The notes under the pieces are model-generated. The model was given only the letters and a program-made list of their open reading frames with translations. It had not been told where the DNA came from and made no database searches. Made by a program: the position numbers and the translations under genes. A stretch of 64,000 nt of DNA from positions 186,001 through 250,000 of the forward strand of contig JAIUOC010000006.1 in the NCBI GenBank assembly GCA_020161265.1, read 5' to 3'. Of the stretch, positions 48,347-50,918 are shown one piece after another. Positions within the stretch are counted from its first letter, which is position 1. Every line of letters begins with the position of its first letter. Source of the stretch: Chloroflexota bacterium. Lineage in GTDB: Bacteria; Chloroflexota; Chloroflexia; Chloroflexales; Herpetosiphonaceae.

Positions 48347-50182
48347 CTATGCTTCCCCTTTTTGTACTGATTCAGTCACCCAGCGGGCGGTTAATGGCAA
48401 GCCATCGCAGCTTGCAACAGCAATAATCCGGCCAGCTAATTCTGGGTATTCCATCCGCAATAGTTGTGCCATTTGGCCGTTGTAGTTGTTGTCAACCACA
48501 TAAATGCGTTCGTACTTAGCCACAAATTCGCCAACTTCTTTGGTGAATGGCAATGCCCGCACCCGTTGGTAGGCGGCGTTGATGTTGGCTTCGCGCAAAC
48601 GATCCAAGGCTTCGATGATTGCTGGATCATTCGAGCCATATGAGAGAATCCCGATCGTGGCGTTTTCTTCGTTGACCGTGACTGGCGCTGGAACAATTGT
48701 TCGCGCAGTTTCAAACTTGCGGGCCAAGCGATCCATGTTAGCGACCCACTCGTCTGAGCGTTCGGTATACTTGGCATCTTGATTGTGGCCTGAACCACGG
48801 GTGAAGAAGGCGGCTTTGGGGTGGTTGGTGCCAGGCAGCGTGCGGAAAGGAATTCCATCGCCATCAACATCGCGATAGCGGCCCCAATCGCCCACAGCGG
48901 TCAAAGCATCGGCATCAAGCACCTTACCGCGATCCATTGGCTCGGTTGGATACTCGAATGGCTCCGACATCCATTGGTTCATGCCCAAGTCGAGGTCGCT
49001 GAGCACAAAGACAATCGTTTGCAAGCGTTCAGCCAAATCGAATGAGCGCCAGCCAAACTCAAAACATTCCTTGATGCTTGAAGGCAACAAACAAACGTGT
49101 TGGGTATCGCCGTGGCTCAGGAAGTAGGCTGAGAGCAAATCGCCTTGGCCAGTGCGAGTAGGCATACCCGTACTTGGCCCCATGCGCATCACATCCCAAA
49201 CCACACATGGCACTTCGGTGAAATAGGCCAAGCCGGTAAACTCAGCCATCAACGAAATCCCAGGGCCGGAAGTAGCGGTCATTGAGCGAGCGCCAGCCCA
49301 ACCAGCCCCAATAATCATCCCAATCGCAGCCAATTCGTCTTCGGCCTGGACTACGGCATACGTTGGCTTGTTGGTTTCTTTATTGATGCGCAATTCTGGC
49401 AAGTAGTCGTTGAGGGCATCGACCAAGCTGGTTGAAGGCGTAATTGGATACCAAGCGACGAATGAAACGCCACCGAATACCGAGCCAAGTGCACCAGATG
49501 TATTACCATCGAGCATAATCATGCCCTTGGTTTTATCCATGCGCTCAACGCGGAATGGCGATGGAGTGGAGATATTCGCAGCAGCCCAAGCTACCGCAGC
49601 ATTCACCACATTCATGTTTGAGGCAATGGCTTTTTGCTTGCCTTTGAAGTGTTTATTCAAGGCGCTTTCGATTTCGGCAACTTCAATGCCGACCAAGTGC
49701 GCCAAAACTCCAACATAAACCATGTTGGCAATATAATCACGCAAGCTCGCATCGACCCCTGAATTCTTCACCAATTCCTTGACAGGCATGGGGAAGTAGG
49801 TCACGTCGCTACGTGAAAGCTCTTGGCGTGAATCATCAGGATACAGACAAATCCCACCTGGCTCAAGCGATTGAAGGTCATCGCCAAAGCTAGCTGGATT
49901 CATTGCCACCAAGACATCGCGTTTGTGGCGACGAGCTTGATAGCCATCCTTGCTCAAGCGAATTGAATACCATGTGGGTAAACCCTTGATGTTTGAAGGA
50001 AACAGGTTCTTGCCTGTGACCGGAATACCCATGTTGAAACATGCACGGAGGATGGTATTATTGGCGGTTTGGCTCCCAGAACCATTGGGAGTAGCCACAA
50101 TAATCGCGAAGTCGTTAATATTCACGTCCTCACGGGCGATTTCAGCGGGCTGTTGCTCCGTCTGATAATCTACGACTGCCAT
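48347..50182 (-). CDS. korA: 2-oxoacid:ferredoxin oxidoreductase, fused gamma-alpha subunit
   Basis: A 611-residue protein. The N-terminal 190 residues are the gamma domain (FAIIVATPNGSGSQTANNTILRA, PASFGDDLQSLEPGG); residues about 220-611 are the alpha (pyrimidine-binding) domain with GNTSGALGSVFGGVSFVAWYPITPST, AIGMIIGAGWAGARSMTATSGPGISLM and PTRTGQGDL. The gamma-alpha fusion is normal for one KorA group. ATG 50182 has AAGGAG nine bases upstream; earlier codons are not family-like. A candidate promoter lies at 50337-50365. Confidence 0.92.
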   Translation of the reverse strand: MAVVDYQTEQQPAEIAREDVNINDFAIIVATPNGSGSQTANNTILRACFNMGIPVTGKNLFPSNIKGLPTWYSIRLSKDGYQARRHKRDVLVAMNPASFGDDLQSLEPGGICLYPDDSRQELSRSDVTYFPMPVKELVKNSGVDASLRDYIANMVYVGVLAHLVGIEVAEIESALNKHFKGKQKAIASNMNVVNAAVAWAAANISTPSPFRVERMDKTKGMIMLDGNTSGALGSVFGGVSFVAWYPITPSTSLVDALNDYLPELRINKETNKPTYAVVQAEDELAAIGMIIGAGWAGARSMTATSGPGISLMAEFTGLAYFTEVPCVVWDVMRMGPSTGMPTRTGQGDLLSAYFLSHGDTQHVCLLPSSIKECFEFGWRSFDLAERLQTIVFVLSDLDLGMNQWMSEPFEYPTEPMDRGKVLDADALTAVGDWGRYRDVDGDGIPFRTLPGTNHPKAAFFTRGSGHNQDAKYTERSDEWVANMDRLARKFETARTIVPAPVTVNEENATIGILSYGSNDPAIIEALDRLREANINAAYQRVRALPFTKEVGEFVAKYERIYVVDNNYNGQMAQLLRMEYPELAGRIIAVASCDGLPLTARWVTESVQKGEA

Positions 50183-50336
50183 GAACGTATTCTCCTTAAT
50201 TGGCTTCTTTGCCAGGTTATAGCCTCTAAAGATACTGCGAACACAATGGTTCGTCAACCAACAAAACGCTGGTTTTTGCGGTTATCTAAACCATAATTGT
50301 ACGCCGTGATTGCTTTAGCTGCGATGTATTATATCT

Positions 50337-50365
50337 ATTATATCCATAGACAGAATCTATGAGAA
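50337..50365 (-). promoter_or_regulatory. Candidate korAB promoter
   Basis: TTCTCA (50360-50365), 17 bases, TATAAT (50337-50342) on the minus strand, about 155 bases before korA. It shows korA need not depend on the transcript that ends at 50411. Confidence 0.55.
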
Positions 50366-50410
50366 CAGCAGTTTTTACCAGTTTTAGGGGCGATTTGCTA
50401 TTCTAGTGCT

Positions 50411-50606
50411 AAAAGAAGAACCAGCCGCTCTGTGCCATGAGCGGCTGGCGTGCCAACTGGAGAGGGGAGAGAGGAGCACCGAGATGCGCAGTTGCCGCTA
50501 CGCCCTCGTATCAATGCTGACGCTTTGCCGATGAATGCATGTCCAGTGCTTCAGAACTGCGTCATAATAAAAACTGTTTTATCGGATAAATCAGTTTTTA
50601 TTGATG
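50411..50606 (-). ncRNA. Candidate small RNA, about 195 nt, with C/U-rich loop
   Basis: A self-contained minus-strand unit. From a predicted start near 50605 the transcript would begin with a long stem (AATAAAAACTG 50566-50576 with CAGTTTTTATT 50592-50602, with TTTATC/GATAAA-type pairing inside), then TGACGC with GCGTCA, then GCGTAG with CTGCGC, then an unpaired CTCCTCTCTCCCCTCTCC run (about 50452-50469), and a perfect 10-bp terminator stem (CCAGCCGCTC, GAGCGGCTGG; 50421-50448) followed by TTCTTCTTTT. The C-rich run could pair with ribosome-binding sites, as in several Gram-positive regulatory RNAs. No open frame longer than about ten codons was found. Confidence 0.6.
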
Positions 50607-50611
50607 GGCGT

Positions 50612-50640
50612 AGTGTACCCAAGGTTGGATAGTTTGTCAA
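50612..50640 (-). promoter_or_regulatory. Consensus-like promoter of the candidate small RNA
   Basis: TTGACA (50635-50640), exactly 17 bases, TACACT (50612-50617) on the minus strand. No gene begins downstream before the terminator at 50411-50448. Confidence 0.75.
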
Positions 50641-50653
50641 GTAGCAATGTTTG

Positions 50654-50918
50654 GAAGGATGAAGGATGAAGGATGAGGGATGAATGTTAGAACAAAGAAC
50701 ATAGAGCATAGAACATAAGGTTGTTATTGGGATCGAGAATTGTGAGGCTTGACCCACTAAGAACACGAAGTTACACGAAGGATTATTTTTTAGCCACGAA
50801 TTGCACGAATGAGCTGTTCATCCTTCATCCCTCATCCTTCATCCTTCCCTTAGCGCCTCTGCGTTAAAAAATAACCCCATAATCGTTATGTTCTATGTTC
50901 TATGCTCTTTGTTCTATA
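50654..50918. repeat. Composite repeat block after the Uma2 pseudogene
   Basis: Order: GGATGAAGGATGAAGG and GGATGAGGGATGAA (50656-50684), GAACATAGAGCATAGAACAT (about 50697-50716), AAGAACACGAAGTTACACG, GCCACGAATTGCACGAAT, then inverted CATCCTTCATCCCTCATCC (50819-50847), inverted CTTAGCGCCTCTGCGTTAAA and inverted TATGTTCTATGTTCTATGC (50887-50906). The same families as at 46951-47236, again nested and inverted. It contributes the stop codon of the Uma2 frame. Confidence 0.78.

Follow-up and report, generated by a model that had tools for sequence, protein, structure and literature searches.

A conserved small RNA gene upstream of korA in Herpetosiphon, with a palindrome in common with iron-acquisition genes

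The minus strand upstream of korA in a Herpetosiphon genome (Chloroflexota) raises two questions: whether the interval holds a small RNA (sRNA) gene of its own or belongs to the leader of korA, and what such an RNA would do. The locus lies in a stretch of 64,000 nt, here called the window. For this locus the original prediction had described a self-contained sRNA unit with a promoter, a terminator with a 10-bp stem, two internal stems, a long 5' stem and a free C/U-rich run. korAB is located downstream of the unit on the same strand, the korA start being about 230 bp away. The features are collected in Table 1.

Table 1. Features of the sRNA locus in the window, and positions of short sRNA genes in genome G000
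Feature	Position	Strand	Basis or remark
sRNA promoter TTGACA-17-TACACT, sigma-70-type	50612-50640	-	In 6/6 genus genomes; spacing and layout as in iron-gene promoters
Predicted sRNA, about 195 nt	50411-50605	-	Fold and conservation
37-bp palindrome, 31-bp core AAAAACTGATTTATCCGATAAAACAGTTTTT at 50569-50599	50566-50602		Probable operator of an iron-responsive repressor
Internal stem-loop closed by TGACGC/GCGTCA	50517-50564	-	Fold; all pairs present in 6 genomes
Internal stem CGAGGGCGTAG/CTGCGC-A-TCTCG	50480-50508	-	Fold
Unpaired C/U run CTCCTCTCTCCCCTCTCC	50459-50476	-	Candidate target-pairing (anti-Shine-Dalgarno) region
Rho-independent terminator	50411-50449	-	Pattern search, fold, pairing across genomes
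korA, 2-oxoacid:ferredoxin oxidoreductase alpha subunit	48347-50182	-	Separate gene downstream, preceded by a conserved leader and candidate promoter region of its own (TATAATAGATATAATACA)
Short-family copies, G000	C1:756202-756258(-), C4:13942-14001(+), C4:68859-68918(-), C5:419641-419700(+), C6:405173-405232(-)		
Sibling short sRNAs with AAUCCUUCCUCCUCACACACACUCUUCUCUCC or a close variant at the start, G000	C7:346116-346178, C1:125650-125712, C1:124029-124091, C1:186443-186502		

The promoter was found exactly where it had been predicted, and the terminator consists of a strong and conserved stem of 10-11 bp at 50449-50420 followed by the tail TCTTCTTTT. As patterns alone both elements are unremarkable and prove nothing: a 3.5-kb stretch contains 10 promoter-like sites where 5.1 are expected, and 3 terminators where 4.0 are expected. 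They become significant because they are conserved. The minimum-energy fold of the RNA (-66.5 kcal/mol, z = -3.45; none of 200 shuffled sequences folded equally well) shows both internal stems that had been claimed, TGACGC/GCGTCA and GCGTAG/CTGCGC, and leaves the C/U run free, with a mean unpaired probability of 0.82. The long 5' stem is likewise present in this fold, but its meaning had to be corrected: it is the transcript of the 31-bp putative regulatory palindrome, which had been overlooked.

The complete unit of promoter, RNA and terminator was found in all six Herpetosiphon genomes searched. Over these genomes the RNA is 96-100% identical, compared with 78-91% at the third codon positions of korA and only 19-40% upstream of the promoter. 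In the alignment, identity sets in abruptly at the -35 box (TTGCTACTTGACA) and declines directly past the terminator, where the spacer retains 67-97% (67% in three relatives; the two closest have 74% and 97%). Both the C/U run and the 5' palindrome are 100% invariant in the six genomes. When the stems were compared, 98.6% of the cells could pair, without double changes; the CGAGGGCGTAG stem shows one change from U-G to U-A that is still paired, and two of its pairs are broken in some genomes. No covariation support was obtained for the stems from the six genomes because their sequences are too similar. No conserved reading frame was found in the unit in these genomes. That it is a small-protein gene instead of a non-coding RNA is extremely improbable; short open reading frames do occur on both strands, but three genomes carry a one-base deletion in the region of the TGACGC/GCGTCA stem-loop, so that no frame could stay in register across the middle, and it is the stems and terminator, not codons, that are evenly conserved.

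The same alignment bears on the question of the korA leader. In a conditional korAB leader the terminator would act as an attenuator and the whole stretch as an iron-controlled 5' UTR of korA, with which the shared strand, the distance of about 230 bp to the korA start and the Fe-S enzymes encoded by korAB would agree. Such a leader is nevertheless very unlikely, since the terminator is strong and conserved, the spacer falls to 67% identity while the sRNA remains at 96-100%, a sister-genus genome retains the conserved korA leader without the sRNA, and induction of Fe-S enzymes under iron shortage would make little sense. A stand-alone sRNA gene that is not part of the korA leader, as originally proposed, is well supported by the block of conservation, the diverged spacer and the sister genus. 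The window also contains, at 50314-50370, a conserved TATAATAGATATAATACA and a long conserved leader before korA, partly retained in the sister genus; this region could be a separate promoter or a regulatory leader.

Among 84,980 species, a 24-mer taken from the C/U run had exact matches only in H. aurantiacus, H. giganteus, H. geysericola and H. llansteffanensis, at one site each. When 82 genomes of the order were searched with the covariance model of the sRNA (R1), nothing convincing turned up outside the genus, where the best E was 0.067, and blastn outside the genus returned short chance matches only. No Rfam family matched the window at gathering scores; with E up to 10, three matches to unrelated families appeared, far below gathering. 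RyhB, PrrF, FsrA and other Rfam families could be rejected as the identity of the RNA on the basis of their covariance models. The same applies to 6S RNA (RF00013), which gave no match here and is located elsewhere in the genome (C9:382036-382203). A plasmid origin was discarded, as no match was found in PLSDB.

That the AT-rich palindrome occurs a second time in the genome emerged from a side match by blastn. A strict search with 0 mismatches found exactly two copies in each of the six genus genomes, one in the sRNA gene and one at fbpABC; the reversed pattern gave no match in 60 genomes. The second copy lies directly behind the promoter TTGACA-17-TATACT of this ABC transporter, the binding protein of which resembles solved ferric-iron-binding proteins (best E 4.5e-86). 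When three mismatches were allowed, five sites were found in this genome, belonging to the sRNA, fbpABC, a siderophore operon, imelysin/efeO with an FTR1 permease, and a class-III aminotransferase; the relaxed reversed pattern matched once in this genome and not at all in the other eight. The siderophore operon is of the catecholate, dhb type, with SDR/dhbA-like, chorismate-binding dhbC-like and AMP-binding dhbE-like genes. In relatives the palindrome precedes FecB/FecCD-type genes, PepSY_TM, efeO and a dhbA-aroF-dhbC-dhbE operon, the dhbA and dhbE of which score above the NCBIfam cut-offs. All 11 sites listed are situated behind a TTGACA/G-17-TA(T/C)A(C/G)T promoter, with the motif 10-14 bp downstream in 10 of them.

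Since the sRNA and the iron genes have this palindrome in common, the sRNA is very probably a member of an iron-starvation regulon, repressed by iron along with the uptake genes. The palindrome could instead be a general 5' stabilising hairpin, the regulation of the sRNA being unrelated to iron. A strong RNA hairpin would indeed form in the sRNA and in fbpA, where 13-14 of 15 positions are symmetric. This is highly improbable all the same, given that the palindrome occurs almost only before iron-acquisition genes and at a constant position behind the -10 box, and that several sites with a symmetry of only 8-9/15 retain the letters AAAAAC, C-N-G and TTT, beyond what pairing alone would call for. 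A hairpin in the RNA therefore fits less well than recognition of the DNA by a protein. Open reading frames from about 27% of the genome yielded no Fur or DtxR in a regular-expression search. Upstream of efeO (L225 and L231), a Fur-like AT-rich dyad beside the -35 box (GAATCATTCTC; GATAATCGTTATAAGAATGATTATC) accompanies the palindrome, which suggests two metal regulators at these promoters. In Herpetosiphon genomes a glutamate-1-semialdehyde-aminomutase-like aminotransferase likewise lies behind the palindrome (L066:5599-6909; palindrome at C2:627535-627565 in G000). This gene has no obvious role in iron metabolism and is possibly haem- or siderophore-related.

From the conserved unit and the operator common to the iron genes, we infer transcription, iron repression, pairing and targets as follows. 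In iron-replete cells, a metal-dependent repressor, for which a Fur-like or DtxR/IdeR-like protein is the candidate, would occupy the 31-bp palindrome downstream of the -10 box and block the promoter, as it would at fbpABC, the dhb siderophore operon and efeO. Under iron shortage the repressor would leave and the RNA of about 195 nt would accumulate, its 5' hairpin being the transcribed operator and its 3' end set by the terminator. The invariant C/U run would then pair in trans with purine-rich Shine-Dalgarno regions and reduce translation of selected mRNAs, most likely mRNAs that encode iron-containing proteins the cell can dispense with, in the manner proposed for FsrA and IsrR. Taken as a whole, a trans-acting iron-starvation sRNA that spares iron by means of its C/U run is the reading that we consider likely.

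Iron-sparing sRNAs exist in enteric bacteria, Pseudomonas, Bacillus, Staphylococcus and Mycobacterium, with an unrelated RNA in each. The Herpetosiphon RNA would be of the same functional kind as RyhB, PrrF and MrsI, each of which is confined to its own lineage; no sequence relation was found to RyhB and PrrF, which are Hfq-dependent, or to MrsI, which is predicted to be controlled by IdeR. IsrR of Staphylococcus is a genus-wide RNA of 174 nt with Fur boxes, three hairpins, a terminator and unpaired C-rich regions (PMC9410917). Judged from its sequence alone, the Herpetosiphon RNA resembles it in length (about 195 nt), in a sigma-A-type promoter with an iron-regulator box, in three hairpins followed by a terminator, in an unpaired C-rich region and in its conservation throughout one genus. 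It differs in its iron box, which is another one and lies downstream of the -10, and no relation in sequence or synteny was found (Rfam; DNA matches in Herpetosiphon only). FsrA of Bacillus subtilis is an iron-repressed, Fur-dependent RNA of 84 nt with the helper proteins FbpA/B/C, and its single-stranded C-rich region is proposed to pair with Shine-Dalgarno sequences (PMC8464778). A C/U-rich single strand and iron repression, as predicted here, would be common to both, whereas the length is different and no sequence relation was found. For FsrA and IsrR, action of such C-rich single strands on the Shine-Dalgarno region has been proposed or shown (PMC8464778, PMC9410917).

A further sRNA family, distinct from the window sRNA and about 62 nt in length, came to light through a search with the complement of the C/U run; it has copies in nine Herpetosiphonaceae genomes. 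Genus genomes usually carry 5-10 identical copies, and three further genera of the Herpetosiphonaceae contain more. The copies have an invariant C/U-rich 5' end of 25 nt (AAACCUUCUCCUCUCUCUUCUCUCC) that starts a few bases past the -10 box, and individual, differing promoters. Their terminator hairpin covaries strongly, with 100% of cells paired and double changes in 9 of 13 pairs (0 of 500 shuffles). No Rfam match was obtained where this was tested, and the family is regarded as undescribed. The window sRNA is not a member: a model of the 25-nt 5' end and the terminator (R2) does not match it at E <= 0.01, and only the C/U run is common (16/18). Diverged sibling short sRNAs have promoters with CGTTA(GG)...GTAA(G/A)CT in place of TTGACA, perhaps read by an alternative sigma factor. 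Cuckoo RNAs of Alphaproteobacteria carry a CCUCCUCCC motif, an anti-Shine-Dalgarno-like pyrimidine run. They resemble the short multi-copy family more closely than the window sRNA, but motif and phylum are different, and homology was compared via Rfam only.

The original prediction had the C/U run pair with ribosome-binding sites, which is plausible, as the run is complementary to purine-rich Shine-Dalgarno regions. Targets were predicted among 1,211 open reading frames from 1.64 Mb (about 27% of the genome). A reversed seed served as control because dispersed purine-rich repeats of the GGATGAGGGATGA type yield false target matches. In the window itself, intergenic purine-rich dispersed repeats (GGATGAAGGATGAGGGATGA and its complement) at 50655-50690 and 50815-50850 mimic sRNA targets. 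HemC was discounted, since the reversed seed scores nearly equally there. sdhD ranked 12th of 1,211, with the same pairing energy in 6/6 genomes; three other sdh genes ranked 208-873 (sdhC 873), and the operon-level value of about 0.04 for the best of four is weak. The top 45 predictions also include a cytochrome c, two P450s, a 4Fe-4S protein and a NifU/IscU-like scaffold. Genes with Fe-S motifs were not enriched among the predicted targets (p = 0.76, 1,211 open reading frames), and the favourable predictions for iron proteins are too few to decide. Aconitase, targeted by all iron-sparing sRNAs discussed in PMC9410917, ranked 1044th of 1,211 and is unfavourable as a predicted target.

The missing enrichment and the poor rank of aconitase would agree with an sRNA that is iron-regulated without sparing iron, its C/U run serving other targets (envelope, general translation) or a sponge that, for instance, competes with or mimics the multi-copy short sRNAs, to whose run it is 16/18 identical. 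This alternative is unlikely on balance, as the known iron-regulated sRNAs with C-rich single strands are mostly iron-sparing (PMC9410917, PMC8464778) and the best-ranked targets include sdhD and several haem or Fe-S genes; iron sparing is retained as the preferred reading. A more tentative idea, which we hold to be doubtful, is a post-transcriptional network throughout the Herpetosiphonaceae built on one C/U-rich anti-Shine-Dalgarno seed, in which the short sRNAs and the iron-controlled RNA would have overlapping targets. The short sRNAs would be switched on by different promoters, and iron shortage would be one input.

The locus represents a real sRNA gene, very probably of a known functional kind, the iron-starvation RNA, and the expectation that it had not yet been described was borne out as far as Rfam and the literature were searched. 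The literature searched contained nothing on iron control in Chloroflexota, which appears little studied, and the RNA is possibly the first recognised sRNA regulator of iron shortage in this phylum. If this is true, an independent example from Chloroflexota would lend weight to the view that iron-sparing sRNAs have evolved repeatedly, often with C-rich pairing directed to Shine-Dalgarno sequences. It would also offer a concrete 31-bp putative iron operator for Chloroflexota, together with an entry to an undescribed sRNA family.
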